DNA from: Bryobacter sp.
GTDB lineage: Bacteria > Acidobacteriota > Terriglobia > Bryobacterales > Bryobacteraceae
NCBI GenBank assembly: GCA_025356215.1
Contig: JANXUM010000154.1
Coordinates: forward strand, 1 to 32,678
DNA: 32,678 bases
Direction of reading: 5' to 3'
Below the pieces are notes generated by a model. It was not told the origin of the DNA. It saw only the letters and a program-made list of their open reading frames with translations, and did no database searches. Below, piece after piece: positions 1 through 30,420 of this stretch. The position numbers and the translations under genes are program-made. Positions within the stretch are counted from its first letter, which is position 1; every line of letters begins with the position of its first letter.

Positions 1-140
1 CGGTGGTAAACCAAAGGACGGCAAGGATGCGCACCCTGTAAGCTTAGCGAAAGATTCCGTCCACATAAGATTCATGAGGCGAAACTCCACTTGCTGACGC
101 TGAATAGGATGCCGGGGCGTTAGTTGGCGGATCTTGAATC
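1..140. other. Window edge: leader of first gene, possible 3' end of an upstream frame
   Basis: No complete gene is visible. One + strand frame is open from base 2 to a TGA at 95-97 and would encode about 31 residues ending in a basic stretch (HIRFMRRNSTC). It could be the C-terminus of a gene entering from outside the window, but nothing in it is recognisable and such a short open frame can occur by chance. The remaining bases lead into the ribosome binding site of the first gene. Confidence 0.2.
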
Positions 141-147
141 GAAGGAG
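141..147 (+). promoter_or_regulatory. Ribosome binding site deciding the start of the first gene
   Basis: GAAGGAG lies 8 nt before the ATG at 156. The in-frame GTG at 147 overlaps this purine tract, so it cannot use it as a ribosome binding site. ATG 156 is therefore preferred. Confidence 0.6.
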
Positions 148-155
148 TGTGGGCG

Positions 156-1391: not shown

Positions 1392-1404
1392 AGCCCGTCG
1401 GGCG

Positions 1405-5929: not shown

Positions 5930-5969
5930 TGGCTGAGTTTATCGCGCCTGCCGCGCCGCTGTCTTCGCG

Positions 5970-6995: not shown

Positions 6996-7001
6996 GACAC
7001 G

Positions 7002-13598: not shown

Positions 13599-14399
13599 GT
13601 GATCACCGGCATTCTCCTTCTCACTCTTTTCGCCCAGGAACCCGTTCCGCTTTACCCCGCCAAGGGCGTCTTCGTAAACGACCTCGACCACCCCAATCTA
13701 ACGCCGTATCTTGCTGACAAAAGCAAAGCCACTGGTGCTGCGGTCGTGGTCTGCCCCGGTGGCGGCTATGGCGCGCTGGCGATGGACCACGAGGGCGTCC
13801 AAATCGCCCGCTGGCTCAATTCGATGGGAGTTCACGCCTTTGTGCTCAAGTACCGCCTGGGCCCCCGCCACCGCCACCCCGCCATGCTGGACGATGTCAG
13901 CGAAGCCTTCCGCATGGTTCGTAAGCGCTCTGCCGAGTGGGGCGTCGACTCAAAGCGCGTTGGCGTCTGGGGCTTCAGCGCCGGTGGGCATCTGGCCTCC
14001 ACCATCTCCACGCACTTCACCAAAGAAACCCGCCCCGATTTCGCGATCCTCAGCTATCCCGTGATCACATGCGCGGAATCCTGGCTACACAAAGGCAGTT
14101 GCAAGAACTTGCTTGGCGAGAATCCCGACGCCAAGTTAGTCGATCTCATGAGCAATGAGAAGCAGGTGACCAAGGATACGCCGCCCACCTTCATTTTTCA
14201 TACCACCGACGACGCCACCGTGCCAGTTGAAAACGCGCTTGCCTATTACACGGCCTTGCGCAGGAACGGCGTGGAGGCCGAACTGCACATCTTCGAGCAT
14301 GGCCGCCACGGTGTGGGACTTGCTGGCGGCGATTGGGTACTGAGTTCCTGGAGTGACCTACTGGCCAAGTGGCTTGTCCGCCACGGAATTACGAAGTAG
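13599..14399 (+). CDS. Exported alpha/beta hydrolase (acetyl-xylan esterase-like)
   Basis: 266 aa from GTG 13599, 18 nt after the DUF1080 gene and probably co-transcribed with it. A short signal peptide (MITGILLLTLFAQ) indicates export. The fold is a BD-FAE/esterase-type alpha/beta hydrolase: the oxyanion region CPGGGYGALAMDHEG (about 52-66), nucleophile elbow GFSAGG (S127), acid loop HTTDDATVP (D204 or D205), and the C-terminal HGRHG segment with catalytic His about 237. Such enzymes deacetylate xylan or hydrolyse carbohydrate esters. Its last 11 nt overlap the convergent FG-GAP gene. It matches many proteins misannotated as 'xylanase'. Confidence 0.9.
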   Translation: MITGILLLTLFAQEPVPLYPAKGVFVNDLDHPNLTPYLADKSKATGAAVVVCPGGGYGALAMDHEGVQIARWLNSMGVHAFVLKYRLGPRHRHPAMLDDVSEAFRMVRKRSAEWGVDSKRVGVWGFSAGGHLASTISTHFTKETRPDFAILSYPVITCAESWLHKGSCKNLLGENPDAKLVDLMSNEKQVTKDTPPTFIFHTTDDATVPVENALAYYTALRRNGVEAELHIFEHGRHGVGLAGGDWVLSSWSDLLAKWLVRHGITK

Positions 14400-15528
14400 G
14401 CTTCTGCCCGAGGAACAAGTGCAAGCCGGACTTGCCCGGCGTTACAAAATCAAGAAGCCCGTCGCCATTCAGATCCGCCACTGGCATTTGCATCCCTGTC
14501 CCGGTTCGCGTTGAATAATCGATCACGTGCTTGGTCCATTGGATCTTGCCATTGGGCTCCTTGAAGTATTCAAACCAGTAGATGCCCAGCGGCTCGCGCT
14601 CGCCGGGGTCGCGCCCGTTGTGGGCCATAAACCGCTTGCCGGTGAGAAAATCCATCTGCCCGTCTTTGTTTAGATCCACCTTCACCACGGTGTGTGGCTG
14701 CGACCACGAATCGTCAATCATCCGCATTTCATAGGTGCCACCGGTATTCTGTTCCAGCCAGAAGAATCCGTAGTCGTGCGCATTGCCGGCGACGATATCG
14801 ACCCGCCCATCGCCATTGATGTCGATCGCATGGATAAAGCTCAGCGCCTTGAGCGGCGGGAAATCCCGGTGCAACCGCCAGTTGCCATCGTGGGGATTCG
14901 CTGGCGCTTCCAGCCAACCCTCCGGCGTAATGATGTCCGCGCGCCCGTCTTTGTTCATGTCGCCCGCGCCGATGCCGTGGCCGTAGTTCTGCTCACTGGC
15001 CGTGTGCTTGACCCACTTGCCGCCGCTCAGTCCGTACCAGGATGTCGCCACCTTGCCGCCGAACTGCGGCAAAATCTCTCTGGCCTTTCCGTCATTGTCC
15101 AGATCGACCATGAAGAAGAACTCTACCGAGCCGCCAATGTCGATTACCGTTTCCGCCCACGGCGCGCCCGGCTTGCCCGACTTCCCGGGGTTACGATACC
15201 AACTCAATTTCTTCGAAAAGTAAGTACCGGTGATGATGTCGATATTCCCGTCGCCATCCACGTCCATCGCCTGATCGGAGAATGCGTCAATGTAAAAATT
15301 ATCGTACTCAAGTGAGCGAAATTGTGTCTTCTTCCAGCTCCCGTTGGCGTACCAATACTCGCCACAAACAATATCCGGTTTGCCGTCGCCGTCAATGTCG
15401 GCGATTGTCGCCGTCTCGGCCGACCCGCCGTCCAACATCGTCTTTGAGAAACTCAATTCGGCCGGGCGCCGTCCAGCGCTCATCATCGCCAGCGACATAG
15501 CCGTCGCCACAATCAATCTAGTGTTCAT
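14389..15528 (-). CDS. Exported FG-GAP/VCBS repeat protein
   Basis: 379 aa from ATG 15528; an upstream start would add 19 residues without a signal peptide. The signal peptide is MNTRLIVATAMSLAMMSAG. Seven calcium-loop repeats of the DxDxDGxxD type can be read (DIDGDGKPD, DVDGDGNID, DLDNDGKAR, DMNKDGRAD, DINGDGRVD, DLNKDGQMD, DLNGDGLLD), matching a seven-bladed FG-GAP beta-propeller. The third loop is degenerate. These proteins are extracellular or periplasmic binding scaffolds, with no enzyme motif visible here. It is the last gene of the GMC - small subunit - FG-GAP operon, overlapping its predecessor by 11 nt, so it may bind the sugar substrate or anchor the dehydrogenase; that is inference. 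Confidence 0.88.
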   Translation of the reverse strand: MNTRLIVATAMSLAMMSAGRRPAELSFSKTMLDGGSAETATIADIDGDGKPDIVCGEYWYANGSWKKTQFRSLEYDNFYIDAFSDQAMDVDGDGNIDIITGTYFSKKLSWYRNPGKSGKPGAPWAETVIDIGGSVEFFFMVDLDNDGKAREILPQFGGKVATSWYGLSGGKWVKHTASEQNYGHGIGAGDMNKDGRADIITPEGWLEAPANPHDGNWRLHRDFPPLKALSFIHAIDINGDGRVDIVAGNAHDYGFFWLEQNTGGTYEMRMIDDSWSQPHTVVKVDLNKDGQMDFLTGKRFMAHNGRDPGEREPLGIYWFEYFKEPNGKIQWTKHVIDYSTRTGTGMQMPVADLNGDGLLDFVTPGKSGLHLFLGQKPTS

Positions 15529-16063
15529 CGATCTTGCACTCCGGATATTCCGCGAGCACCTGGTTACCCAGATACCCCAACTCACCGACCAGACCGGCGT
15601 GCGACGTGTAGTAGCCGTCCGCCGTCATATTCTTTGCCACGCGAAAGAATCGCTGTTCCATCGTTTTCACTTCGCCTTTGTCCACCTGCGCGCACACGGG
15701 TTCAAGAAGTGCTAACTGCTTTTTCTCGATCAACTTCATGAACTTCTTCGATTCCAGCCAATGAAGACCGTCTGTGTAAGTCTTCTTGTGCTCCGCATTG
15801 TTGCGCACCACTAAATCGATATAGTTGGGCACCAAGGCGGCGGTGGCCCCGGGGATGATTAAATCCGCGACGCGAGACAACATGGCAAATTGCCCGGGAT
15901 TAAAAAACTGCGGAGGCCCAGGGTCCGCCCCCCGTGTCGGCACCGGATGTTCATGTTGTCCGTACAACTCGTCCCCCGCAAACGGAAAAGCGCACTGGAT
16001 TCCAATCGCTCCAATGATTTTGATCGTCTCGCGGCGACCGTCGCCAAATGCGTTCGTGGACAT
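15518..16063 (-). CDS. GMC dehydrogenase small subunit (gluconate 2-dehydrogenase subunit 3 family)
   Basis: 181 aa. The N-terminus GRRETIKIIGAIGIQ resembles a twin-arginine signal. The body is the all-helical subunit-3 type, with FNPGQFAMLSRVADLIIPG near residue 55-75. In characterised gluconate and glucoside dehydrogenases this small subunit carries the Tat signal and hitch-hikes the cofactor-loaded GMC subunit to the periplasm. It starts in the stop of the GMC gene (TAATG, 16061-16065), fixing the pair stoichiometrically. 'Subunit 3' names a family only; the substrate need not be gluconate. Confidence 0.88.
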   Translation of the reverse strand: MSTNAFGDGRRETIKIIGAIGIQCAFPFAGDELYGQHEHPVPTRGADPGPPQFFNPGQFAMLSRVADLIIPGATAALVPNYIDLVVRNNAEHKKTYTDGLHWLESKKFMKLIEKKQLALLEPVCAQVDKGEVKTMEQRFFRVAKNMTADGYYTSHAGLVGELGYLGNQVLAEYPECKIDEH

Positions 16064-17625
16064 TATGCTTCTCCTTTTTTAAGGCGGTCGATCAGATGTT
16101 CGGCGCTGCGGGCCGAGACGGCCATGAATGTATGGGTCGGGTTCTTTTCCGACGACGAGGGTAGGATGTTGCCACCCAGCGTATAGAGATTTCCGATGTC
16201 GTGCGTTCGACCGTAACTATCCGTCACAGACTTGCGCGGATCTTTACCCATGATGCTGCCACCGTGTTCGTGATTCGGTTTGGGCTCTTTGTACACCTGG
16301 TGGATCTCAGCGCCCGCCGCCTCAAGAATTGCCACCGACTGCTGTTGCATGTCGCGAAAGATCTTCATGTCGTTATCGTTCCAATAAAGGTATCGGCGCA
16401 CCTCGGGGAGCCCGAACTTATCCTTCTTCGCCGGGTCCAGATCGACGTAACTCTTTTCGTCCGGCGTCTTCTCCCCGTACGGCGAGAACACAAAGTAGGA
16501 CGGATAATGATTCTTCACGGTATCCTTTAGCGCTTGTCCCATCCCCGGCATTGTGCGCGCCCAGCCGACGCTGCGCCGGTTCTGATAGTTGAACTGCGCG
16601 CCCCAGCTCCGGGCGTAATCGCGCTTCTGCGTATGCATGAAACTTGGGAGATAGGCGTGGTCGAGAAAGCCCTCGTCGTTCACCGTCTTGCCGCCCATCA
16701 TCTTCGTCAAAAAGGCCTCGACGCCGCCTGTAAAGTGGGGCATAAAATCGCGGCCCACGCGACCCGACGAATTCGCTAACCCGGTCGGATAGCGGCTCGA
16801 TTTCGATTGCAGCAGCAGCGATACGTTCTGCACACAGGCAGCCGCCAGAACCACAACTTTGCCGAAGACCTCGCCGTGCGCCAGCGTCGTTCGATTCAGA
16901 AACTTAACTCCCGTAACCTTGTTCTCGGCATTCACGGGGATATCGTAAACGACACTGTCCATTTGCAATGTAATTTTGCCGGTACTCATGAGCGGACGCA
17001 TGTGTCCGTCCCAGGAATTGTATTTGGCCGCGACATCGCAACCGGCCATGCAATTACCGCAGTAATGACAAGCAGGCCGACCAAACTTAGCCCGGGTGAG
17101 TGTCGCCTTGCGGACGTGGATGACTTTACGTCCGAGTTTTGCCGCCCCGCGCTGGATGTGCAGGTCCGAACACTTCATCGGCGCGGGCGGAAGAAAGATC
17201 CCGTCCGGCAGATCCTCAAGCCCGTCCAGATTGCCGCAAACGCCCACTTCGCGCTCGATCCGTTCATAATACGGCGCAAGATCGCTGTACTTGATGGGCC
17301 AATCGTAACCGACCCCATCGCGCGTAAATCCCTCAAAGTCTCTGGGCCCAAAGCGCCAAGCCACCGCGTTCCAGAGCATCGATTTGCCGCCCAACCCGCG
17401 CGAGCGTTCCGTATCGAAGCCCGGCTTGTTGTTTCGCATCTTCGGGATGCCGCGATTGGGAAATTCATACGGCATCGCGTGGGTGTTGAAATCGGTGCGC
17501 GTCTCGATCTTGGGCCCACCCTCGACCACGCACACATTCACGCCCGCTCGCGCCAGATGAGCCGCAGCCGTTCCACCGCAAGCGCCGGAACCCACGATCA
17601 CTACGTCGTAAATCGTATTCGCCAT
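16063..17625 (-). CDS. GMC family FAD-dependent oxidoreductase (periplasmic sugar dehydrogenase, module 1)
   Basis: 520 aa with no signal peptide, as expected when a small subunit carries the export signal. It opens with the FAD dinucleotide-binding motif VVIVGSGACGG followed by the VVEGG strand end. A CHYCGNCMAGC cysteine cluster lies in the middle of the protein. At the C-terminus the GMC active-site pair is H452 (HEHGGSIMG) and N495 (EKNPTHT), 43 residues apart. The usual H-E-x-G-x-x-R-M-G context has I instead of R. Known relatives oxidise aldoses, gluconate or the C3 hydroxyl of glycosides and pass electrons to a cytochrome c. First gene of a leftward three-gene operon; AGGGG lies just before the ATG. 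No cytochrome gene is in this operon. Confidence 0.93.
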   Translation of the reverse strand: MANTIYDVVIVGSGACGGTAAAHLARAGVNVCVVEGGPKIETRTDFNTHAMPYEFPNRGIPKMRNNKPGFDTERSRGLGGKSMLWNAVAWRFGPRDFEGFTRDGVGYDWPIKYSDLAPYYERIEREVGVCGNLDGLEDLPDGIFLPPAPMKCSDLHIQRGAAKLGRKVIHVRKATLTRAKFGRPACHYCGNCMAGCDVAAKYNSWDGHMRPLMSTGKITLQMDSVVYDIPVNAENKVTGVKFLNRTTLAHGEVFGKVVVLAAACVQNVSLLLQSKSSRYPTGLANSSGRVGRDFMPHFTGGVEAFLTKMMGGKTVNDEGFLDHAYLPSFMHTQKRDYARSWGAQFNYQNRRSVGWARTMPGMGQALKDTVKNHYPSYFVFSPYGEKTPDEKSYVDLDPAKKDKFGLPEVRRYLYWNDNDMKIFRDMQQQSVAILEAAGAEIHQVYKEPKPNHEHGGSIMGKDPRKSVTDSYGRTHDIGNLYTLGGNILPSSSEKNPTHTFMAVSARSAEHLIDRLKKGEA

Positions 17626-17705: not shown

Positions 17706-19769
17706 ATGACACGAATCCTCTGGATCATTGCATGCTCCACCGCGCTCCTGGCGCAACGCCGGGACGGTCTCTCCAAGCGGGATCTCATTCTCGCCCCAAA
17801 CGAAGTTGACTATCAGTCTGCGGTCAAGGTGCCGCGTGGATATGCCGTGATCGTGGGCGTCAGCAACTACGCCAACCTTCCAGCAGCCGCGCAGTTGAAG
17901 TTCGCCGAGAGCGACGCCCGACGGATTTATCAGACAGTCATCTCGCGCGAGGGTGGCCAAATCGAGCCCGAAAACGTGAAGACCCTCTTCGGCGCGCAGG
18001 CCACAAAGGCAAACATCGCCAAAGCCATCGAAGAGTGGCTCCCGAGCGTCGCCAAGGAAGACGATCGTGTGATTGTGTTCTTCGCCGGACACGGCTTTGT
18101 TTACCAAGGCAAGGGCTATCTGGCGCCTTACGACTTCGCGTTTGAACGCACCTCCGACACTGGCTACGATATGGCGCGTCTGGGGGAGGTGCTGGCCAAC
18201 AAGGTGAAAGCGCGTAACAAGATTCTACTGACCGACGCCTGCCACTCCGCAAAGATACTGCCGGGCCTGAGCTCCAAGCAGATCAACGATCAATTCAAAT
18301 CGCTGCCCGGCACCTTCTTCACCTTGGCCTCCAGTCGCGAGGCGGAGTCCAGCTTCGAGGACCCAAATCTTGCCAATGGTTCGGGCGTCTTCGCGTACTT
18401 TCTGGTGCAAGGCTGGAAGGGGCAAGCCGACGTGGATCCCGAGGACGGCGTCGTCACCGCCGACGAGCTTGTGCAGTACGTTCGCAGCCAGGTCCGCCAA
18501 TACGCAAAGGCTCACGGCGTGGTCCAGAATCCGCAAGAGAGCGGAAGCTTTCCCGCAGACATGATGCTGGGCTTCCTTCCGCTGCGTCGCGAAAAAGTAA
18601 AGAACAGCGCGGCTCCCGTCAAAGAGGGCACGATCATCGTGACCACCAACCTTGACGACGTCGAAGTCTATGTCGACGGTAACCGCATCGGCAAGGTCGG
18701 GGCGGGGAAGAAGCTGGTGGTTCCCGGTTTGTCCAGCGGCGAACACGAGGTGCGAGGAGAGCGGCAGGGTTACGATCCCGCTCAGCGCGTGGTCACGGTG
18801 CGCCCCGGCCAGGAGATCAACGTTGAGTTGCGCATCCAGTTCCAGCGCCGGATTGGCGAGGCGGCCAAGGACGAATTCAAGCGCGGTCAGGCCATCTACG
18901 CACGCCGCAAGAGCGCTGCTGAGCTTCAATCCGCCGCCGCAAACTTCCAGAAGGCGCTCAAGCTGGAGCCCAAGTACAGCGACGCCGCCGAGTACCTTTG
19001 CCTCACTTACCAAGTGCTGGGGCAAACCGCAGAAGCCGTCAAGGCATGCAAAAAGGCGGTCGATCTCACCCCCGACGGTACGGAGTTCCGCACTTACTAC
19101 GCCTCGGTTCTGACGGAGATGGGCGACTCGAGCGAAGCCATCCGCCAGTTGAGCGCGGTGCTGGAGCGCGATCCCCAACGCGCCGAAGCCTACGTCATGC
19201 TGGCCGACGCTTACCTCTTCGCTCAGGACTTTCCCAAGAGCGAGGCTGCCGCCACTAGCGCTCTCGCGCTGAACCCCAAAGACGCTCGTGCCTTCCTCTT
19301 TCGCGCCGACGCTCGCCGCTTTCAGAACCGCTACGCCGAAGCCATGGGCGACTACCTCACTTATCTGCGAATCAATGATTTTCGCGCGCCGATTAACGAA
19401 GTCCTTGGCTTTTACCTCATCGGCAGCGGCCTCAGCAAGCGCAATGCCGGTCAGAAGCGAGTGCACGAGATTCAACAATGGAGCGCCTGGTTCGGCATCT
19501 GCGATTGCGCGCGCGGCATGGACGAATACGCAAAAGCCGTTTCCGCCTGCGACCGCGCGATTCGAATTGACACCCGTGACGCCGGGACATACTATCTTCT
19601 CGGTAAGACTTATACTGAGTGGTTCGACCAGAAAAATTCGCGCGATACGCTGCTCAAGGCGGAAGAGAAAATTACGACCGCCTTGCGCTTAAACCCGGAT
19701 TTTGAATTCGCCAAAGAGGCCAAACGCCAATTGGGCCTCATTCGTGAATTTAAGGCGGTGATTCGATGA
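17706..19769 (+). CDS. Secreted caspase-family protease with PEGA and TPR domains
   Basis: 687 aa. A signal peptide (MTRILWIIACSTALLAQ) directs it outside the cytoplasm. Residues about 43-290 form a peptidase C14 (caspase/metacaspase) domain, with catalytic His in FFAGHG (H129) and catalytic Cys in LLTDACHS (C179). Residues about 308-378 are a PEGA domain (VEVYVDGNRIGK, LSSGEHEVRGERQGY), a surface beta-sandwich. Residues about 385-687 are TPR-like helical repeats (YLCLTYQVLGQTAEAVKACK, YVMLADAYLFAQDFPKSEAA). Both catalytic residues are intact. The role of exported bacterial caspases is poorly known. The next three genes on the same strand all encode exported proteins, so this may be a processing factor for them; that is inference. 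Confidence 0.93.
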   Translation: MTRILWIIACSTALLAQRRDGLSKRDLILAPNEVDYQSAVKVPRGYAVIVGVSNYANLPAAAQLKFAESDARRIYQTVISREGGQIEPENVKTLFGAQATKANIAKAIEEWLPSVAKEDDRVIVFFAGHGFVYQGKGYLAPYDFAFERTSDTGYDMARLGEVLANKVKARNKILLTDACHSAKILPGLSSKQINDQFKSLPGTFFTLASSREAESSFEDPNLANGSGVFAYFLVQGWKGQADVDPEDGVVTADELVQYVRSQVRQYAKAHGVVQNPQESGSFPADMMLGFLPLRREKVKNSAAPVKEGTIIVTTNLDDVEVYVDGNRIGKVGAGKKLVVPGLSSGEHEVRGERQGYDPAQRVVTVRPGQEINVELRIQFQRRIGEAAKDEFKRGQAIYARRKSAAELQSAAANFQKALKLEPKYSDAAEYLCLTYQVLGQTAEAVKACKKAVDLTPDGTEFRTYYASVLTEMGDSSEAIRQLSAVLERDPQRAEAYVMLADAYLFAQDFPKSEAAATSALALNPKDARAFLFRADARRFQNRYAEAMGDYLTYLRINDFRAPINEVLGFYLIGSGLSKRNAGQKRVHEIQQWSAWFGICDCARGMDEYAKAVSACDRAIRIDTRDAGTYYLLGKTYTEWFDQKNSRDTLLKAEEKITTALRLNPDFEFAKEAKRQLGLIREFKAVIR

Positions 19770-20551: not shown

Positions 20552-21403
20552 ATGCAACGCTACTTATTTTTACTCGCCGCCTCGGCCGCTTTCGCCGCCA
20601 ACGAGATGGAGGGCCCGTCGCTTGGCTGGATGTGGGATCGCGACACTCAGAGCCTCCGCCGTCTGGGCGGCTTGCCCGGTGGGCTTCGCAACGAACCCGG
20701 TCTCGATCTCGGCGACGGCGTTCGGGCCGTCTGGATCGCACCCACTCAAAACTTCGCGCTCATCGCCCGCGATGGCGGCCTGCTTGAGCGTCGCAGCTTG
20801 ATCACTGGAGAGAGCAGCCGTATCGAAGCAGAGATGCCCGAAGCCGTCATCTTCTCTCCCGATGGCCAACAACTCGGACTCTGGTCCAAATCCGCTGGAC
20901 GCTTTTCTCTTTGGGGCGCGCCCGCTCAAAACCTCAACGCCGCTCGTATCGCGCTGGCCAACGACGGCGAACTCATCATTCTCGACTCTGACGGCCTCCT
21001 GCGCTCCTCGCGTGGAGCCGCTCTCGGCAATTTCGGTCCCAACGCCGCCATCGCTCTGGACGCCTCCCGCCTGGTGGCCGTCGGTGGCGGCGCGCTTGTC
21101 ATCTACGAACAGAGCTCCGCGGGCTGGCGCCTCGCCAACCGCCTTCAAGACGATCGCTTCGATGCCTGGCGGCAGATCGAGATGGAACCGGAAACCGTTT
21201 TGGCGGTCACACAGATCGGCGCCATCGAACGCTGGCCGCTATCCGGTGCCGATCCCCAGACGCTCGCCAGCGACAGCGTCACCAGCCTCATTCGCCTGCG
21301 GCAACCCGGATTCTATCTGGCCCAAGGGGATTCGACGCGGCTCTTCTTCGCCCTCGGCATAAGCCAAAAACTTTATTCATTGCCCAACGGGGAGCAGCGC
21401 TAA
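20552..21403 (+). CDS. Exported beta-propeller-like protein, unknown function
   Basis: 283 aa. The signal peptide MQRYLFLLAASAAFAA ends in a good cleavage context. The mature part is built of repeating short beta-strand blocks (GVRAVWIAPTQNFALIAR, EAVIFSPDGQQLGLWS, RLVAVGGGALVIYE), resembling a six- or seven-bladed WD40/YVTN-type propeller without the canonical WD dipeptides. There are no enzyme residues. It is 2 nt after the Big-1 gene, and its stop overlaps the start of the next gene (TAATG, 21401-21405), so the three are one translational unit. Confidence 0.75.
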   Translation: MQRYLFLLAASAAFAANEMEGPSLGWMWDRDTQSLRRLGGLPGGLRNEPGLDLGDGVRAVWIAPTQNFALIARDGGLLERRSLITGESSRIEAEMPEAVIFSPDGQQLGLWSKSAGRFSLWGAPAQNLNAARIALANDGELIILDSDGLLRSSRGAALGNFGPNAAIALDASRLVAVGGGALVIYEQSSAGWRLANRLQDDRFDAWRQIEMEPETVLAVTQIGAIERWPLSGADPQTLASDSVTSLIRLRQPGFYLAQGDSTRLFFALGISQKLYSLPNGEQR

Positions 21404-24249
21404 TGTTTAAAACAATATTTGGACTCATTGTTCTGGCCGGGCTGCTCGACGCTCAGGCGATCCGCGGCAACGGCGGCTTCAATACGAACAAGATGAAGAA
21501 TGGCGACGACAACTATGAACCATCTCCGATCGGCTTCAACGTAAACTTCTTCGGACAGCTTCAGCAAACCGCGTATATCAGCAACAACGGCAACCTTACC
21601 TTCGGCGGCCCCTTTCTTGCATCGGACGGCACAGCCGCATGGGTGCCGCTTCCGCTGCGCCAGCTCTTCGGCGTTGCGATGATTGCCCCGTTCTTCGCCG
21701 ATGTCGACACCACTCTCAGCGCGCCCGTCACCTACGGTCGCGACACCGTAAACGGTCGACCCGCCTTCGGCGTCAACTATATCGGCGTTGGGTACTACAA
21801 AGCCAAGACCGACAAGCTCAACAGCTTTCAGTTAGTCCTAATCGAGCGTGGCGACACCGGCGCGGGTAACTTCGACATCGAGTTTAACTACGGCAGCATC
21901 CAGTGGGACATCGGCGAGAATACCCGGATCGGCCGCGCCTACGCCTCTGTCGGTTACACCAACGGTTTGGCCAACACTGCAAATTCCGCCTTTGAACTCC
22001 CCGGCTCCCTCGGTGGCGGGGCCTTCCTCGATTCCGGCGGTTTCGCCCTCATCCGTCAAAGCCGCAACAGCGGCGGAGTCGCGGGCCGGCTTGTCTTTGA
22101 AGTCCGTAACGGCAACATCAACAACACGACCTTGATCATTCAGCCGGACAAGACGATCCTGAATTGCCCTGACATTACGATCGTCGCTCGCGGCAGTGGC
22201 TACACAACTTCCAGCCAATTCATCACCCCGCAGTTCCAATACGCTCTGAAAGAAAACGGCCAAACCCGTCAGATCACCGAAGCTTTCGCCACTCGCGTTT
22301 CCGACGCGCCAGCCGGGACTTATGACTTCACAATCAAATACCGCGGTGCTGTTCCCATTACCGCAACCGGAGCGCAAACCACCAGCGACGTATCTCTGAC
22401 GGTAACTTTGCCGGCACCGAACGGCGACGGTGCGACTTACACCGCAACCGATAGCAAAACCTTGCGTAACTGCGGGCTCGCCGCCGATTGCGGCACTTTG
22501 CCCAAAGACGGTCGGGTTGGCTTCACCCTGCGTGGGCAAGCCAGCGCCAGCGGCGGCGTACCTCCCTACGTTTTCTCTGCTCCCAACGGCGCGTCCCCTG
22601 GCCTCAGTTTGGGTAAAGATGGCGTACTCACCGGAGCGCCCACCACCGCCGGCAACTTCAGTTACACCGTAAAAGTAGATGACCAGTCGGTCTCGCCCGT
22701 GCAATTCGCCGTCACAACCTGCGCGATCAACGTCCTCGGTACAAACACGCCACTTACTGGCGCCTGTGCCACTCCCGCTGGCACGGCCGGCTCCGCCTAC
22801 CAAGGTGCGATTACGGCTTCTGGCGGCGCGGGTCAATACACCTTCAGCCTCAGCTCCGGTAGCTTTCCGCCGGGTCTCGCCATCAACGCCACCGGCGTAA
22901 TCTCCGGCACGATCGCAGCTACTGCCGCTGGTGCCTATCCATTTACGGTCACCGTTCGCGATGCCGCTGGCATTACAGTTCCCGTCAATTGCTCAATCCA
23001 GGTCACGCCGCTCGTGATTCCGGTCCCCACCATCACCGCCCTCGCTCCCGCATATGCCGTAGTGGGCTCCCCGGCTTTCCAGCTCAACGTTACAGGAACC
23101 AACTTCACTAGATCCTCCGTCTTCGTTTGGAACGGCTTCCTCCTCTCTACTTCCTTCACAAGCGCGACTGCGCTGGTTGTCACCATCCCTGCCAACCTTC
23201 TCGGTGCGGCGGGCTCGGCGACGGTCTTTGTTCGCAATAGTCCCACGGTCCAAAGCGTTGATTTTGGCTTTGAGGTCTTCCCTCGTCTCAGCTACATCTC
23301 CACCGCCCCCGCGTCGCTGGTCGCCAACAGCACTGCTACAGCCATTACGATCGACGGCGACGGTTTCTTGCCCGGCATCACGATCGCGATCAACGGCACC
23401 TCCGCTCCCGTAACCAGAGTCAGCACCCAGCAGCTTCGCGCTCAGATTCCTGCCAACTTACTCATGCAAGTCGGCACGCTAACCGTCCGCCTTATTAACC
23501 CGAACGGAGTCAATCTCGACATTCCGCTCACCGTCGGTTCTGGCATCACAGTTACGCCAACCTTCTCCGTTGACAAGCCAGCCGTGATTACCGATCAATC
23601 TACCGCCACGGTCCGCCTTGCCCAAGCTGTCAATCAGGCACTCACCGGCGCGCTGGACATCACCTTTGTTCCGGCCGCCGACAACAGTCCCAATAATGGT
23701 GCGACTGACTTCCCGCGGTTTACGAGCGTCGGCACGCGGCGAATCCCGTTCACAATTGCCGCCAACGCCACCTCATTCAGCGCGCCCATCGATCAAGGCA
23801 GTGTTGCAGGTACGGCAACCATAACGCTCTCAAGCCTCACCGCGAATGGAGGCGATGTGCTTGCTGGCGCGCGTCCCACCCAAACCCTCACCATCGATTC
23901 CACCGTCCCGTTGATCCTCCCCGGCAGCGTGGGAATGGTGCGGACGGCAACAGGCTTTAACGTTGAGGTCACCGCGATCTCAACGCTCCGCAGCCTCACT
24001 GCTGGCTCGCTCACCTTCACGCTCGCCAGCGGCGTCACAAACGGAGGCTCAACCACTTTCCCGATCGATAACCTGCCCACGCTGGGCACAAGCTGGTTCC
24101 AGTCCGCTTCGGGCAAGACCGAGGGCGGCGCTTTCAAGTTAACGATCCCCTTCACCTTCGAAGGCGACTTCAATAACTTGTCCACCGTCCAAGTTACTCT
24201 CAGTAACTCACGCGGTGCCGGTGCGCCGGTGACCGGGCCGCGCCGCTAA
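21403..24249 (+). CDS. Large exported NIDO - Ig-like - IPT/TIG surface protein
   Basis: 948 aa. The signal peptide is MFKTIFGLIVLAGLLDA. Residues about 30-235 match a NIDO (nidogen-like) domain (YISNNGNLTFGGPF, MIAPFFADVDT, GRLVFEVRNG). Two putative-Ig (He_PIG) repeats follow at about 365-440 and 450-535 (GVPPYVFS..PGLSLGKDGVLTGAP; GAGQYTFS..FPPGLAINATGVISG). Two IPT/TIG-like domains lie at about 540-715, then further beta-sandwich modules run to the end. There is no PEP-CTERM, LPXTG or autotransporter end; it stops at GPRR. The protein is low in Cys, rich in Thr/Ala/Gly and probably extracellular, adhesive or matrix-forming. Last gene of the caspase cluster; its stop shares CTAA with the opposing gene. 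Confidence 0.88.
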   Translation: MFKTIFGLIVLAGLLDAQAIRGNGGFNTNKMKNGDDNYEPSPIGFNVNFFGQLQQTAYISNNGNLTFGGPFLASDGTAAWVPLPLRQLFGVAMIAPFFADVDTTLSAPVTYGRDTVNGRPAFGVNYIGVGYYKAKTDKLNSFQLVLIERGDTGAGNFDIEFNYGSIQWDIGENTRIGRAYASVGYTNGLANTANSAFELPGSLGGGAFLDSGGFALIRQSRNSGGVAGRLVFEVRNGNINNTTLIIQPDKTILNCPDITIVARGSGYTTSSQFITPQFQYALKENGQTRQITEAFATRVSDAPAGTYDFTIKYRGAVPITATGAQTTSDVSLTVTLPAPNGDGATYTATDSKTLRNCGLAADCGTLPKDGRVGFTLRGQASASGGVPPYVFSAPNGASPGLSLGKDGVLTGAPTTAGNFSYTVKVDDQSVSPVQFAVTTCAINVLGTNTPLTGACATPAGTAGSAYQGAITASGGAGQYTFSLSSGSFPPGLAINATGVISGTIAATAAGAYPFTVTVRDAAGITVPVNCSIQVTPLVIPVPTITALAPAYAVVGSPAFQLNVTGTNFTRSSVFVWNGFLLSTSFTSATALVVTIPANLLGAAGSATVFVRNSPTVQSVDFGFEVFPRLSYISTAPASLVANSTATAITIDGDGFLPGITIAINGTSAPVTRVSTQQLRAQIPANLLMQVGTLTVRLINPNGVNLDIPLTVGSGITVTPTFSVDKPAVITDQSTATVRLAQAVNQALTGALDITFVPAADNSPNNGATDFPRFTSVGTRRIPFTIAANATSFSAPIDQGSVAGTATITLSSLTANGGDVLAGARPTQTLTIDSTVPLILPGSVGMVRTATGFNVEVTAISTLRSLTAGSLTFTLASGVTNGGSTTFPIDNLPTLGTSWFQSASGKTEGGAFKLTIPFTFEGDFNNLSTVQVTLSNSRGAGAPVTGPRR

Positions 24250-24758
24250 TCCACGTGGCAACTTGCGTCCAGCCGCTCCCGCATCTTAGGCCAGTTCAAC
24301 AGCACAAAGGTTACGCTGTATCCCGGCAGTAGCATCTCCAACTGCACCGCCTCGCGCAGCAGTGGCGTCAGGTCGGGCGGCAGGCTAAACCGCGAAATGT
24401 CGCCCCCAATTAGGGGACTTATCTCAAACGGTGGAAAGTCCTTGCCGTTCAACTTCGCGATCGCTCTACCGCCCAACGCCAATTGCACTCTCATGTCCAC
24501 AAACGCATTCAACGGTCGCGCGGCCCCGCGCTGGCAGTAAATGACCAGATAGGGCGCAACCTTCTTGCCGTCGGCAAGGCTCACCGCCGCGGTCGCCGGC
24601 AGCGCCGCCAGTTGCAACGGGTGCTCTTGTCCAGCCACCGGGACCGTCGAGTAGATCCAGTTGCCCGCCAACTTCGGCGGTACCTTGACGGGGCGAATCT
24701 CTCCCCGCTGCTGGGCGATGCCCAAGGCCATGAGAACGTGAAAGAATACAGAGTGCAA
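24246..24758 (-). CDS. Hypothetical exported protein
   Basis: 170 aa if translation starts at TTG 24758, which yields a signal-peptide-like N-terminus (MHSVFFHVLMALGIAQQ). ATG 24731 would leave almost no hydrophobic core, and the farthest start (24794) would run into the divergent enolase-type gene. The mature part is beta-rich (YLVIYCQRGAARPLNAFVDMRVQLALGG, PGYSVTFVLLNWP) with no known motif. It is squeezed between two rightward units: four bases shared with the NIDO gene end, and 2 nt from the start of the next operon. The start is uncertain and the function unknown. Confidence 0.6.
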   Translation of the reverse strand: MHSVFFHVLMALGIAQQRGEIRPVKVPPKLAGNWIYSTVPVAGQEHPLQLAALPATAAVSLADGKKVAPYLVIYCQRGAARPLNAFVDMRVQLALGGRAIAKLNGKDFPPFEISPLIGGDISRFSLPPDLTPLLREAVQLEMLLPGYSVTFVLLNWPKMRERLDASCHVD

Positions 24759-24760
24759 AT

Positions 24761-25969
24761 ATGCAACGTAGAACGTTTCTAGGTCTGTTGGCAAGTGGCG
24801 CGTCGTCTGTCCTCTCTCAGGACTTCCCCCGCCGCGCCCCCGCCTATGAGGCGCCGCTCTTCAATTTGCATGCCCGATTCGCCTCGCCCGTGAAGATTGC
24901 CAAGGTCGAAGTCTTCGAGCGCGGCAAGGCCACCTTTGTCCGTGTTGAGGCCTCTGACGGCGCTTTCGGCATCGTCCGCACTAAAGACATCGACGACTTC
25001 ATCCCGATCTTGCTGCGGCGCGTCATCCCGGCCTTTCTAGGCCGCGACGCTCGCGATCTGGAGACGATTGTCGACGACGTTTATGTTGCCAACTACAAGT
25101 GGGCCGGTCAACCCCTCTGGAGCCCCGTCGCCTCCGTCGAACATGCCACCTGGGACCTCCTCGGCCGCATTGCCAAACAACCCGTCGCCGCGCTCCTGGG
25201 CGGCGTTAAGCGAAAAGAAATTCCCGTCTATCTTTCTGGCTCCGGTCGTGAGACCACGGTCGAGGAAGAGGTTGAGGTTTACGTCCGCGGCCTCGCCGAG
25301 ACCGGTGCCAAGGCGGTTAAATTTAAGATCGGTGGCCGCATGACGCGCAACGTCGACGCCTACCCCGGTCGCACCCGAAAGCTCCTGGAGTTGGCTCGCA
25401 AACGCATGGGCGACCGCACCATCATTTATGTCGACGCCAACGGCACCTACGACGCCGACTCCGCCATCCAACTGGCCCCGATGCTTGCGGACTTGAAGAT
25501 TGCCTTCTTTGAAGAGCCTTGCCCGTGGGAAGAAGTCAGCGAGACCAAGCGCGTCGCCGACGCCCTGGAAATGCCAATCGCCGGCGGTGAGTGTGACAGC
25601 TCCCTTTGGAAATTCCAAGATATGATCGAACGCCGCGTCCTCGATATCATCCAACCTGACCTCAATTACTGCGGCGGCATCATTCGCGCCTCGCGCATCG
25701 CCAGAATGGCAGCCAAGGCCAAGATGACCATCGTTCCCCACAACACACAAATCGACGCCGCCGGGGCAAAAATGCTCCAATTTGCCGCCGCCACCGCCAA
25801 CATTGGCACTTACATGGAATTCCCTCATCGCGCCATTCCGAAAGTGGCGGATTGGTATACTCCCAATTTCACGATTAAGAACGGCGTCATCGCCGTCCCG
25901 ATCAGTCCCGGCCTCGGCGTCGATTTCGACCCTGGCTACCTGAAAGCCGCCAAGCGCATCGATTCCTAA
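24761..25969 (+). CDS. Exported enolase-superfamily enzyme (mandelate racemase/muconate lactonizing type)
   Basis: 402 aa. The start MQRRTFLGLLASGASSVLSQ is a Tat-like signal, unusual for a superfamily that is normally cytoplasmic. The active site is intact: KxK at K187/K189 (VKFKIG), metal ligands D225 (VDANG), E251 (FFEEP) and E277 (GGECD), and the mandelate-racemase dyad D300 (QPDLNY) and H327 (VPHNTQ). The layout fits the mandelate racemase subgroup, which includes sugar-acid dehydratases, so it may dehydrate or epimerise an aldonate or similar acid in the periplasm. It heads a five-gene operon, 29 nt before a lactonase. The substrate is not assignable. Confidence 0.92.
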   Translation: MQRRTFLGLLASGASSVLSQDFPRRAPAYEAPLFNLHARFASPVKIAKVEVFERGKATFVRVEASDGAFGIVRTKDIDDFIPILLRRVIPAFLGRDARDLETIVDDVYVANYKWAGQPLWSPVASVEHATWDLLGRIAKQPVAALLGGVKRKEIPVYLSGSGRETTVEEEVEVYVRGLAETGAKAVKFKIGGRMTRNVDAYPGRTRKLLELARKRMGDRTIIYVDANGTYDADSAIQLAPMLADLKIAFFEEPCPWEEVSETKRVADALEMPIAGGECDSSLWKFQDMIERRVLDIIQPDLNYCGGIIRASRIARMAAKAKMTIVPHNTQIDAAGAKMLQFAAATANIGTYMEFPHRAIPKVADWYTPNFTIKNGVIAVPISPGLGVDFDPGYLKAAKRIDS

Positions 25970-25998
25970 ACGACAGCCAATTTCGAAAGACTTTCCAG

Positions 25999-27075
25999 AT
26001 GAAACTCAACTTAGTCCTAATGGCCACCCTCGCCACAAACTTGATTGCCGCGGAGCGAATTGCTTACATCGGCACTTACACCAAGCCGCAAGCCAGCAAG
26101 GGCATTTATATGGTGCGCCTCGACGCCGCCACCGGCAAGTTGTCGAAGCCGGAACTCGCCGGCGAGAGCGAGAGCCCGTCTTTTCTGGCAATTGCCAAGA
26201 ACGGCAAATTCCTCTACGCCGCCAATGAGATCTCCAAAGGCGACGTTAGCGCCTTCGCAATCGAGCCCGGAGGCAAGCTCCGCTTTCTGAACAAAGTCAA
26301 AGCACAAGGCGACGCCCCCTGCCATATCAACATTGACGCCACCGGTAAGTGGCTCGCTGTCGCCAATTACTCCAGCGGTACCGCTGCCGTCCTGCCCATC
26401 GCCGCCGACGGTAAGTTGGGAGAAGCCGCCGCCACCGTCCAACACAAAGGCAAGGGCACAGATCCAGCGCGCCAAGCTGGCCCTCACGCCCACGCGGCCT
26501 ATTTCTCCGGCGACAACAAAAGCCTCTACATCGCCGACCTCGGCCTCGATCAAGTCAAGATCTACAGTTTCGACGCGAAGACCGGCAAAATCGCGGAGAC
26601 CGGCCATCTCGACACGCCCAAAGGTGCGGGCCCCCGCCATCTCGCCCTCGGCGCCAACGGCCTCGCCTATGTCCTCAATGAGATGGGCAGCAGCGTGAGC
26701 GTCTTCCAGAATGGCAAGCTGCTCAACACCGTCTCGGCCATCCCCGCCGATTTCAAGGCCAATACCAGTGGTGCCGAAATCCTCCTTCATCCCAAGGGTA
26801 CCCTCGTGTTCAGCTCCAATCGTGGCCATGACAGTATCTCGATTTTTCGCGCCAATCCCTCCACTGGCGAGCTGAAGCTTCTGGGCCAGCAAGCTCTTGG
26901 CGGCAAGACGCCCCGCGGTTTCTCGCTCACCCCTGACGGCAACTTCCTCGTCGCGGGCGCGCAAAATTCCGACAAGGTGTTCTCCTTCAAGGTCGACGTC
27001 GCCGCCGGTACGCTCACTCCTGTTGGCGAGTCGGTCGCCGTCTTCAGCCCCGTCGATGTCCGCTTCCCGAGATAG
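25999..27075 (+). CDS. Exported lactonase family protein (6-phosphogluconolactonase/YbhE-like seven-bladed propeller)
   Basis: 358 aa. The signal peptide is MKLNLVLMATLATNLIAA. The mature protein starts RIAYIGTYT and continues with the repeating blade pattern of the lactonase/3-carboxymuconate cyclase family (SPSFLAIAKNGKFLYAANE, PCHINIDATGKWLAVANYSSGT, GPRHLALGANGLAYVLNE, LLHPKGTLVFSSNRGHDSI). The GPHAHAAYF segment carries the His pair usual in this family. Cytoplasmic members hydrolyse 6-phosphogluconolactone; this one is exported, so a sugar lactone made by a periplasmic dehydrogenase is the more likely substrate. It is 3 nt before the GMC small subunit gene. Confidence 0.9.
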   Translation: MKLNLVLMATLATNLIAAERIAYIGTYTKPQASKGIYMVRLDAATGKLSKPELAGESESPSFLAIAKNGKFLYAANEISKGDVSAFAIEPGGKLRFLNKVKAQGDAPCHINIDATGKWLAVANYSSGTAAVLPIAADGKLGEAAATVQHKGKGTDPARQAGPHAHAAYFSGDNKSLYIADLGLDQVKIYSFDAKTGKIAETGHLDTPKGAGPRHLALGANGLAYVLNEMGSSVSVFQNGKLLNTVSAIPADFKANTSGAEILLHPKGTLVFSSNRGHDSISIFRANPSTGELKLLGQQALGGKTPRGFSLTPDGNFLVAGAQNSDKVFSFKVDVAAGTLTPVGESVAVFSPVDVRFPR

Positions 27076-27078
27076 CCA

Positions 27079-27588
27079 ATGCAACGCCGCTCGATCCTCT
27101 ATTCACTGCTCGGCGTCGCCCCGGCCCTCGCCTGGCAAGACCCGCAGTCGCCTCTCCCCACGTCGGCTGCCGAAGCCGTCTCGATGGGGCTACCCAAGTT
27201 CTTCACCGTGCCAGATCTGGAGGCCTTCGCCGCTCTGGGCGATGCGCTGATTCCCCCGTACGATGGCCGCCCTGGTGCCCGCGAGGCGGAGGCCGCAGAC
27301 TTTCTCGATTTCCTCCTCGCCCAAAGCCCCACGGACATCCAGTCGCTCTATCGCGGTGGCTTAGCCACCTGGAAGCTGCGCAGTAAGGCGGGCGTTCCCG
27401 CCGCGCTCAAAGAACTCTCCGAACCCTGGTCGCATGCCGGGCCCTCCACCCCCTACGCCAAGTTCCTCAGCGCCGCCAAGATCGCCTTCTATCAAGCCAC
27501 GCTCAATTCACGCCAGTGGGCGTCGGCGATGGCAACCCGCAGCCGCGCCGCCTCCGGCATTGGCTCTTACTGGATGCCCATCGAATGA
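27079..27588 (+). CDS. GMC dehydrogenase small subunit (gluconate 2-dehydrogenase subunit 3 family)
   Basis: 169 aa. The start [20 protein letters not shown] is Tat-like. The mature part is helical, with the family feature [32 protein letters not shown] near residues 50-80. It probably escorts the following GMC flavoprotein through the Tat system and stays as part of the complex. Its TGA overlaps the GMC ATG (ATGA, 27585-27588). It is only distantly similar to the small subunit at 15518-16063, so the two modules are not a recent duplication. Confidence 0.88.
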
Positions 27589-29147
27589 AAACTAAATACG
27601 ACGTACTCATCGTCGGCAGCGGTGCCAGCGGCGGCATGGCCGCCCACACCCTCACGCGCTTAGGTGCCAAGTGCGTCATGCTCGACGCCGGTCCCCTCAT
27701 CGATCCAGAAAAGCAGCGTGTCCTGCGCCCCGTCGCCGACCTTCCCTATCGCGGCTTCGGCAAGCCCGGCCGCTTCCCCCACGTCACTCAGGCCAATGAG
27801 TTCTCTGCCAACATGTGGGCCGATGAAAAGCAGAACCCCTACTCCTACGACCCTGAGGATCCTTATTACTGGGTCCGCATTCGTCTGGTCGGAGGCAAGA
27901 CCTTGGCCTGGGGCCGCGCCTCCTGGCGCCTCAGTGACTATGAGTTCAAAGGCAAAGACCACGACGGCTACGGCGACAACTGGCCCATCTCCTACGCCGA
28001 CCTCGCCCCCTTCTACGACCGCGTCGAACCGCTCTTTCGCGTCAGCGGTCGCATGGAAGGCTTCCCGCAGATCCCAGACGGCAACTTCCTTCTCGATGAT
28101 TCTAAAGACAGCGAATGCGTACAACGCTTTCTCGCCTCCTGCCGCAACGCCCAAGTCCCCACCACCAAGCAGCGACGCAGCACCGGCACCCTGGCCAGCA
28201 GTCTCAACCTGCTGCTGCCCACCGCCATTGAGACCGGCAACCTCACTCTGGTACCCAACGCCGTCGTCCGCGAGCTGAGCTACGATCGCAAGACCGGTCG
28301 CGTAACTGGCGCTCATTTCGTCGATCGCATCTCTAAGCGCGAGTTCCATGTCGAAGCCAAGGCCGTCATCCTTGGTGCTTCCACGCTTGAGTCCACCCGC
28401 ATTCTGCTCAACAGCAATCTTGCCAACTCCAGCGGAGTTCTCGGTCGTTACCTCTTCGATCAGTTTTACGTCAAGAACATTGTGCAGGCAATTGTTCCGG
28501 AGGCCCGTGGCGGCAAAGCCCCTCGCACGCTCATGGGTGGAGGCGGCTACATCCCTCGCTTCCGAAATCTGAAGACGAAGGAGAAGAATTTCATCCGCGG
28601 CTACGCCTACGATTTCGGCAGCGGCAACAGCCCCGGTCCTCAGTACTTCAACGCCTACGGCGAGGAACTGTGGAAGAAGCTTGCCGACACCCAAGGCAGC
28701 GGCTTCAACCTGACCGCGATGGGCGAAGTTTTACCGCGCTACGACAGCGTCGCGCATCTCAACAAACAGAAGACCGACGCTTGGGGCATTCCCGTTTTGC
28801 ACTTGAAACAGAAGTACACCGCCAATGAGTTCAACATGGCAAAGGACGCGATGAACACGGCCGAGGAGCTCTGCCGCGCCTCTGGCTTTGAGATCCTTGC
28901 CAAGCATTGGGAGATGGTTCCCCCCGGTGAGAGCATTCACGAACTCGGCACTTGCCGCATGGGCAACAACCCCAAGACCAGCGTGCTCAACCAGTGGAAT
29001 CAGACCCACGACATTCAAAACCTCTATGTCGTCGACGGCGGCGCTTTCGTCAGCGGCGGCTCGCAAAATCCCACTCTCACCATCCTCGCGCTCACCCTTC
29101 GCGCCTCCGAACATCTGGCGGAGGAGATGAAACAGAACAAGATATGA
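27585..29147 (+). CDS. GMC family FAD-dependent oxidoreductase (periplasmic sugar dehydrogenase, module 2)
   Basis: 520 aa from ATG 27585; a longer GTG frame from 27516 lies inside the previous gene and is rejected. The FAD motif is [11 protein letters not shown] at 7-17. The substrate-entry region has [19 protein letters not shown]. The active-site pair is H452 (HELGTCRMG) and N495 (SQNPTLT), the same positions as in the other GMC protein here. It has no own signal peptide, fitting export with the preceding subunit. The following gene encodes a multiheme cytochrome, the natural electron acceptor, so the trio forms a membrane-side dehydrogenase complex. Gluconate, aldose or glycoside C3 oxidation are all possible. 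Confidence 0.94.
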
Positions 29148-29611
29148 AGTACCTCCTGATCGTGGCGATCTCCCTTTTGGCCGCAGACCCTCCTAAGCAA
29201 CCCATTGCTTTCAGCCATAAGCAGCACGCCGGTGACTTTAAGCTTCCCTGTGCCACCTGCCACGTCAATCCTTCCCCGGGCGAAGCAATGACATTTCCAG
29301 CCGAGGCCAAATGCATGGCCTGCCACAACAGCGTCAAAACCGATTCCCCAGAAATTCAGCGCCTGGCCAAGTTCGTCGCCGACGCCAAACGCGTACCCTG
29401 GGTGCGCGTGTATCAGGTTCCAGCCATCATCTTCTGGAGCCACAAATCACATCTCGACGCCGGCGCCAAGTGTGTGGAATGCCATGGCAACGTCGCCGCA
29501 CTCAGTGTGATGACCAAAGAGAAGGAGACCTCGATGGGCTCATGCATGGAATGCCACCGCCAGAAGAAAGTCTCCAACGACTGCAGCTTCTGCCACGAAC
29601 GCCAAAACTAA
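29144..29611 (+). CDS. Exported five-heme cytochrome c (cytochrome c3/c7-like)
   Basis: 155 aa from ATG 29144, overlapping the GMC stop (ATGA). The signal peptide is [14 protein letters not shown]. Five CxxCH heme sites are visible: CATCH (36-40), CMACH (57-61), CVECH (110-114), CMECH (134-138) and CSFCH (147-151). Distal-ligand-type histidine pairs occur in FSHKQH (25, 28) and WSHKSH (100, 103), giving four further His for bis-His ligation. It should accept electrons from the upstream GMC flavoprotein and pass them to the respiratory chain. Most gluconate dehydrogenase complexes use a triheme cytochrome with class-I-like domains, so this c3/c7-like type is a variation. It ends sharing CTAA with truA. 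Confidence 0.92.
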
Positions 29612-30420
29612 GAGTACTTGACGCTCTCAAGAAACAGCCCGGACGAAGGTGCCGTCCAAGCCGCCACATCCAGCTTCGGGCAAGGCTTACCCGACATCAA
29701 CGCGGCAAAATCCTTCTGCGAAATGTCCCGCAACCCCACCTTCACCAGCGTGCCCGTCAACCGCCGCACCATGCGCCAAACAAAGTGCGACGCCGCGATC
29801 CGAAACAAAATCCGGTCATCCTGTTCTACAATTTCCGCGCTCTCCACGACGACAATGGAAGACTCGTTCGGCCTCGCCGCGTCTTGAGCCTGAAAATTCT
29901 TGAAGTCGTGCCGTCCCGCGATCGTCGTCGCCGCCTCGCGCATCCCGGCCAGATCTAGCGGCTCCTTTACCCACCACACGTATCGCTTTTCAAACGCGGT
30001 CTTGCGCCTGCTGATCTGATAAACGTACTCGCGCCCGATCGCGTCATGCCGCGCATGAAAAGCGATCGGAGCCGTCTCCACCCGCCTCACGCAGATCTCA
30101 GCTGGCAGTTTGCGATTGATCTCCGCTGCAATCTGCTCCACCGCCATAGCTTGCCGGGCCCGAAACTTGATGTGCGCCACTTGTCCGCGGGCATGCACCC
30201 CCGCGTCGGTCCTCCCCGCGCCCACAAGCTCCACCTCTGCATGCAGCGTATCTTCCGCCGCCACGCGCAATTCTCCCATCACCGTGCGAGCGTTCTTCTG
30301 CTCAGCCCAGCCGCTGTATTTGCCGCCGTCGTACTCGATGGTCAGCCGCAGGCATTGGTGCGGGGCCGCTTTCTCAGTCGGTCTCGCCATCGGTTTTATG
30401 ATCGGTTTCGCTATCGCCAC
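29608..30420 (-). CDS. truA: tRNA pseudouridine(38-40) synthase TruA
   Basis: 270 aa from GTG 30420, which abuts the stop of the response regulator; ATG 30390 would give 260 aa and is equally possible because neither has a clear ribosome binding site. The family hallmarks are the N-terminal IEYDGGKYSGWAEQ, catalytic Asp in VGAGRTDAGVHARGQ (D72 by GTG numbering), EYVYQISR with the conserved Tyr, and FVWRMVRRLTGTLVKVG near the C-terminus. The length matches E. coli TruA. It modifies U38-U40 in the anticodon arm of tRNAs. Its position behind a two-component system looks incidental. Confidence 0.96.
   Translation of the reverse strand: MAIAKPIIKPMARPTEKAAPHQCLRLTIEYDGGKYSGWAEQKNARTVMGELRVAAEDTLHAEVELVGAGRTDAGVHARGQVAHIKFRARQAMAVEQIAAEINRKLPAEICVRRVETAPIAFHARHDAIGREYVYQISRRKTAFEKRYVWWVKEPLDLAGMREAATTIAGRHDFKNFQAQDAARPNESSIVVVESAEIVEQDDRILFRIAASHFVWRMVRRLTGTLVKVGLRDISQKDFAALMSGKPCPKLDVAAWTAPSSGLFLESVKYS

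Follow-up and report, generated by a model that had tools for sequence, protein, structure and literature searches.

The five-gene operon described here, at positions 24761-29611 of a 32,678-nucleotide (nt) stretch of DNA from Bryobacter sp. (contig JANXUM010000154.1 of assembly GCA_025356215.1; the whole stretch is referred to as the window), resembles several described systems in part. In the flavin adenine dinucleotide (FAD)-dependent glucose dehydrogenase of Burkholderia cepacia (FAD-GDH, a gamma-alpha-beta complex) and in fructose dehydrogenase, a leaderless GMC subunit with a His/Asn catalytic pair is accompanied by a small subunit with which it hitch-hikes through the twin-arginine translocation (Tat) pathway, and electrons pass to a multiheme cytochrome c. 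PMC6719666 assigns the 3Fe-4S cluster of the B. cepacia enzyme to Cys212, Cys218 and Cys222, a C-x5-C-x3-C motif, and describes a beta subunit with three hemes. ActA, a component of alternative complex III that is encoded with ActB and NrfD-like subunits, binds four hemes with bis-His and one with His/Met ligation according to PMC5928083. The periplasmic gluconolactonase PpgL (6igb) combines a PF10282 propeller with an export signal. The conversion of sugar acids by the enolase superfamily, to which the dehydratases and cycloisomerases of the mandelate-racemase subgroup belong, is treated as intracellular in the open-licence papers examined.

The operon lies on the forward strand of a draft genome (5.14 Mb in 623 contigs). 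Its open reading frame (ORF) coordinates bear out the five genes and the spacing given by an initial annotation made from the sequence: 29 nt between ENO and LAC, 3 nt between LAC and SSU, and ATGA overlaps at both the SSU/GMC and the GMC/CYT junctions. The genes, in order, and the residues referred to below are as follows.

24761..25969, forward strand: ENO, 402 amino acids (aa); mandelate-racemase-subgroup enzyme with MR_MLE_N and MR_MLE_C domains (Pfam), predicted to be exported by a Tat-type signal
ENO pocket residues, from sequence and alignment: K187, K189, D225, N227, E251, E277, D300, H327, E353
25999..27075, forward strand: LAC, 358 aa; Lactonase PF10282, seven-bladed propeller; Sec-like N-terminus by sequence inspection
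27079..27588, forward strand: SSU, 169 aa; Gluconate_2-dh3 PF13618; twin-arginine start MQRRSILY
27585..29147, forward strand: GMC, 520 aa; FAD-dependent, GMC_oxred N and C domains; signal-less; His452/Asn495; without the 3Fe-4S motif (start taken at 27585, a longer ORF from 27516 being an upstream extension)
29144..29611, forward strand: CYT, 155 aa; Cytochrome_C7 / Cytochrom_CIII (Pfam); stand-alone ActA-like pentaheme cytochrome with a Sec-like start
CYT heme sites: CxxCH at 36, 57, 110, 134 and 147; further His at 25, 28, 100 and 103; Met131

The sequences themselves show which genes are present and in what order, their signals, cofactor motifs and pocket residues, and that the genes recur; actual export, the electron path, the substrate, and the reactions of LAC and ENO and their order are inferred. 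SSU, exported by the Tat system, would take GMC, an FAD enzyme already folded and without a leader of its own, across the membrane, where GMC would oxidise a sugar or polyol and pass the electrons to CYT without a 3Fe-4S relay, and so to the respiratory chain. LAC would open the lactone formed by this oxidation. ENO, itself exported by Tat in folded form, would then convert the sugar acid so released, most probably by dehydration to a 2-keto-3-deoxy acid that a separate anion transporter would take up. Taken as a whole, this ordered extracytoplasmic route of oxidation, delactonisation and dehydration stands at best a little below an even chance.

Export of ENO is very probable. Its start, MQRRTFLG, and that of SSU are of the twin-arginine type by inspection, those of LAC and CYT are Sec-like, and GMC has no signal; this agrees with the annotation's expectation that four of the proteins carry their own signals and that GMC, lying behind a Tat-type SSU, is probably carried. 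The combination of PF13618 with a twin-arginine start is that of a Tat hitch-hiker's small subunit, so SSU may well be the carrier. A script found a Tat-type start in 54 of 57 members of the ENO clade, a count that leans upward because start codons were chosen to favour an arginine pair (a bias shared by the R3/R4 columns of the alignment); of the three remaining members, one reads RRQW and contig ends truncate the other two. As expected of a Tat substrate, the arginine pair of ENO precedes a hydrophobic stretch, and the host genome encodes TatC. In the predicted structure of ENO (mean predicted local distance difference test score, pLDDT, 87.0) residues 1-24 are mostly below 50, and the fold matched by structure comparison begins at about residue 42. 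The start found across the clade, this low-confidence leader, the late onset of the fold and the presence of TatC together support export. A cytosolic ENO with a chance arginine pair, the outcome by which the annotation's proposal could have failed, is rejected on the conservation of the start and on the signal-less paralogues, which begin at the domain.

The annotation had also called the export of an enolase-superfamily enzyme unusual, which it is not in this genome. A PF13378 profile search gave 20 matches, 19 of them above the cut-off. Eighteen mandelate-racemase-type ORFs were examined (loci L281-L295 of the window's genome, G000, plus window positions 24761-25969 and 7005-8318), one of them truncated by a contig end; a Tat-type start is present in ten of the 17 readable ORFs, and the other seven begin straight at the domain. 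Judged from these starts, export of the superfamily is a habit of this lineage. It is the literature relative to which the compartment of ENO is unusual: no title or abstract on an exported enolase-superfamily enzyme, or on such a gene set, was found in the open-licence literature, and in PMC5507952 'twin-arginine' and 'enolase superfamily' occur only as reference entries. SAR202 bacteria likewise have a large set of enolase-superfamily paralogues, for which non-phosphorylative catabolism of sugar acids, or a role in the use of chiral compounds, has been proposed (PMC10444878 and PMC6946804). Neither main text uses the word 'periplasm', whereas here the majority of the readable paralogues look exported.

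The pocket of ENO is complete. None of the nine residues varies in alignments of 17 and of 20 sequences, the seven already named by the annotation (all but N227 and E353) stand at the positions it gave, and the set includes the K-x-K motif, Asp/His dyad and three acidic metal ligands of the mandelate-racemase subgroup. From the sugar-acid dehydratases and cycloisomerases of that subgroup, with which it shares the fold and full pocket, ENO differs by its Tat-type export signal. Its closest structures (3u4f, 3tcs, 3t8q and 3t9p; Z 41.8-42.8, root-mean-square deviation 2.3-2.7 over 354-362 residues) are 32-35% identical, and none of their titles assigns a reaction; they come from a re-examination of Foldseek matches, in which the absence of a family does not exclude that family. 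The top NCBIfam models are galactonate, arabinonate and gluconate/galactonate dehydratase, all matched far below cut-off. The reaction cannot be read from either source, and a dehydratase is the mildly favoured assignment from sequence. That ENO, once exported, instead epimerises or racemises the oxidised sugar, or works on it as a lactone cycloisomerase, is unlikely, if the most credible of the alternatives. Such a pocket supports several kinds of proton transfer, a predicted intracellular cycloisomerase has an equivalent set of eight pocket residues (PMC9706016), and the nearest structures are without an assigned reaction. The fold matches include galactarolactone cycloisomerase (4hpn, 4ggb) and 3,6-anhydro-D-galactonate cycloisomerase (5olc), but the fold list does not discriminate between reactions, and it is the dehydratase models that NCBIfam ranks first, weak as their scores are.

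In GMC, H452 and N495 are invariant in the alignment and coincide with FdhL residues, giving the His/Asn catalytic pair, and fructose and glucose dehydrogenases are the solved structures nearest to it in sequence. The cysteine motif of the 3Fe-4S cluster was looked for in GMC and is absent, the alignment showing the loop to be missing, unlike in the B. cepacia enzyme. (A GMC structure model built on nine sequences reached a mean pLDDT of 60.6 and was not used.) A second GMC gene of the window, GMC2 (16066-17625), does have the motif. Its partners in a reverse-strand trio (14392-17625) are an FG-GAP repeat protein and a small ORF that contains an RR pair (15521-16063), and this trio adjoins the ENO operon in locus L030 and an ENO-less operon in L068. 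LAC matches PF10282 with 355 bits over residues 22-356, the whole propeller, and probably acts as a lactonase; the family and export signal are those of PpgL, from which this predicted lactonase differs in sitting with a GMC dehydrogenase. It is also conceivable that GMC oxidises a ring hydroxyl, as in 3-keto-sugar chemistry, in which case no lactone would form and the substrate of LAC and ENO would be a different one. Most loci examined have SSU-GMC-CYT without LAC and ENO, and the C-terminal part of GMC also matches pyranose oxidases and the GMC oxidoreductase 7qf8, which we take to be a C-glycoside 3-oxidase. The kinship of GMC with fructose and glucose dehydrogenases, and the retention of LAC between ENO and SSU in the genus, make ring oxidation quite unlikely.

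CYT was expected to be a c3/c7-like cytochrome, of which the five hemes hold and the type does not. Its best structural-chain matches are ActA-type (8k9e, 6f0k, 6btm, 6lod) and score far better than a plain c3/c7 protein, which is ruled out; against the QrcA model it reaches 76.6 bits, where the cut-off is 180. The five CxxCH sites, the four further His and M131 are invariant in 12 aligned sequences, and by sequence they match the heme-site and ligand pattern of ActA and QrcA, with four bis-His hemes and one His/Met heme. The genome's own ActA-like protein (217 aa), 36% identical to CYT, shares the five CxxCH, four His and one Met and lies with ActB-like and NrfD genes on contig C236. CYT has no such company: it follows GMC and stands alone, encoded with a dehydrogenase rather than with ActB and NrfD-like subunits. 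Its N-terminus is short and hydrophobic, compatible with a signal as well as with a transmembrane anchor. Where FAD-GDH and fructose dehydrogenase have a membrane-bound three-heme cytochrome c, this operon thus has a five-heme ActA-like protein. Every part of the operon is of a known kind, and two features that define the FAD-GDH/fructose dehydrogenase complex are missing from it.

Electron transfer from SSU-GMC to CYT is highly likely on these sequence grounds. Members of the CYT family also adjoin pyrroloquinoline quinone (PQQ) dehydrogenases in L034, L080 and L084, a GSDH-type protein in L083 and a molybdopterin protein in L085, from which we infer that the family may serve as a plug common to different dehydrogenases. 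In L034 a molybdopterin oxidoreductase gene (16-2442, reverse strand) directly follows a PQQ dehydrogenase-CYT-ENO cluster.

Within the genus, GMC has a match with an E-value of 1e-100 or lower in all eight genomes, while ENO is present at the home locus in five, absent from two and not visible in one (G005), where the contig begins inside a permease gene. Sister species G001 and G002 have an intact ENO-permease-LAC-SSU-GMC-CYT cluster, and G003 and G007 have the same order broken by contig ends. The inserted gene, which the window genome lacks at this place, is an AI-2E_transport permease (PF01594; L029 9547-10608, L067 5691-6737). The recurrence anticipated by the annotation therefore holds for the gene set; the exact five-gene order, found in the window genome only (1/8), is ruled out as a conserved unit.

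Among 237 genomes of the family, relatives of ENO (E up to 1e-110) are found in 56 and relatives of GMC (E up to 1e-150) in 101. Around 33 GMC loci, one of which ends directly after the GMC match, an ORF with at least four CxxCH lies within 900 nt downstream in 23 and a Tat-type ORF lies upstream in 30; because of this SSU-GMC-CYT is, judged from these ORFs, the wider core. Outside the home locus, a redox gene is found within 3 kb in seven of 53 ENO loci, and in six it is adjacent and co-directional. These six show four further arrangements: SSU-GMC-CYT-ENO (L143), ENO-SSU-GMC (L144, L145), PQQ dehydrogenase-CYT-ENO (L034) and CYT-ENO (L159, L168). In the seventh, L179, a PQQ gene lies on the opposite strand about 2.5 kb away. 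A major facilitator superfamily (MFS) carrier is found near ENO in L168 and L159, with the D-galactonate transporter subfamily as its best NCBIfam model, below cut-off. Neighbouring genes were called with a simple ORF scorer, and names given without a family search are putative. In a control clade of 38-44% relatives, redox neighbours occur within 3 kb in 0/9 loci (L043, at 58%, is counted in the ENO clade). In three of 26 genomes outside the genus that have both genes, ENO adjoins GMC; the rough chance estimate for this, assuming 1.6 GMC copies, 5 kb on either side and a 7 Mb genome, is 3e-5, or 0.0016 if two like arrangements are counted once. Since the genes cluster in sister species and recur rearranged in other genera, and the pocket residues are invariant, the operon reflects more than chance. 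We read the link between ENO and the redox genes, as it appears from gene neighbourhoods, as real but optional.

ENO itself reaches further. The best 80 ENO loci of the genome scan include Verrucomicrobia, Opitutae, Bacteroidota (Tannerella, Paludibacter), Planctomycetota and Anaerolineae. In a listing of ATG starts made without preference for an arginine pair, nearly all distant loci, those of Verrucomicrobiota, Bacteroidota and Planctomycetota included, have a Tat-type start, the exceptions being three Chloroflexota-type records. L274, L275 and L277 have no Tat start and L210 has none among its ATG starts; L218, L229 and L251 are truncated at the 5' end. The order in one Tannerella locus is SusC-like, SusD, ENO, DASS anion symporter and YhcH/YiaL, which fits an anionic substrate handled between two membranes.

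Several observations weigh against the proposed route, and the annotation's casting of the five genes as one obligate route is not supported. Genomes with both ENO and GMC number 31 of 237, a weak co-occurrence (P = 0.02; 0.06 outside the genus), and no redox module lies within 3 kb of ENO at 46 of its 53 loci other than the home locus. The Verrucomicrobiota and Bacteroidota copies viewed lie mostly among unrelated genes. G004 has no ENO at the home locus, and in G006 a stretch resembling the start of ENO directly precedes the permease gene, the rest being gone; because this remnant remains, G006 reads as having lost ENO by deletion. LAC accompanies the SSU-GMC-CYT core only in this genus among the loci examined. 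The assignment of ENO to the Tat pathway comes from motif and conservation. Finally, the sugar acid could be dehydrated inside the cell, since the same window holds, within 1408-8318 (reverse strand), an MFS carrier, a cytosolic-looking IlvD/Edd dehydratase above the NF004784 cut-off and a signal-less, glucarate-dehydratase-like mandelate-racemase-type enzyme, by their sequences a likely cytosolic sugar-acid route beside the operon. (Two ORFs of this cluster, 2604-4247 and 5973-6995, have no family match.) The module-less ENO loci, the weak co-occurrence, and the survival of the remaining operon in G004 and G006 would all suit an ENO that is a mere passenger, co-directional by position and functionally independent of the redox module, a reading made very improbable by the four further co-directional arrangements, the adjacency of ENO and GMC beyond its chance estimate and the empty control clade.

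The borders of the operon are formed by two genes on the opposite strand.

24249..24794, reverse strand: divergent conserved ORF, family-less, without a match in Pfam and NCBIfam profile scans; overlaps the ENO start; upstream border
29611..30420, reverse strand: convergent gene, presumably truA-like by its sequence; downstream border

Further upstream on the forward strand, 21403-24246 encodes a protein of 948 aa in which nidogen-like, Ig-like and TIG domains are combined with a choice-of-anchor Z repeat; several members of the genus conserve it ahead of the operon. The stretch 17706-19766 encodes a protein with caspase-domain, TPR and PEGA parts that is conserved in the genus.

Returning to the proposed extracytoplasmic route, its widest form is doubtful, though possible: that in Acidobacteriota a non-phosphorylative sugar-acid branch may run outside the cytoplasm by means of a Tat-exported enolase-superfamily set, joined to respiration through an interchangeable, ActA-derived pentaheme plug that would serve FAD-GMC, PQQ, GSDH-type and molybdopterin enzymes, with a GMC class that has no 3Fe-4S relay. 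GMC enzymes without this cluster bear on sugar sensors that work by direct electron transfer. The ActA-like cytochrome offers a handle on the path from periplasmic dehydrogenases to the respiratory chain in Acidobacteriota. If the route were true across several phyla, soil-type bacteria would dehydrate first and take up afterwards, the opposite of the usual order, and the search for carriers would turn to those of keto-deoxy acids.

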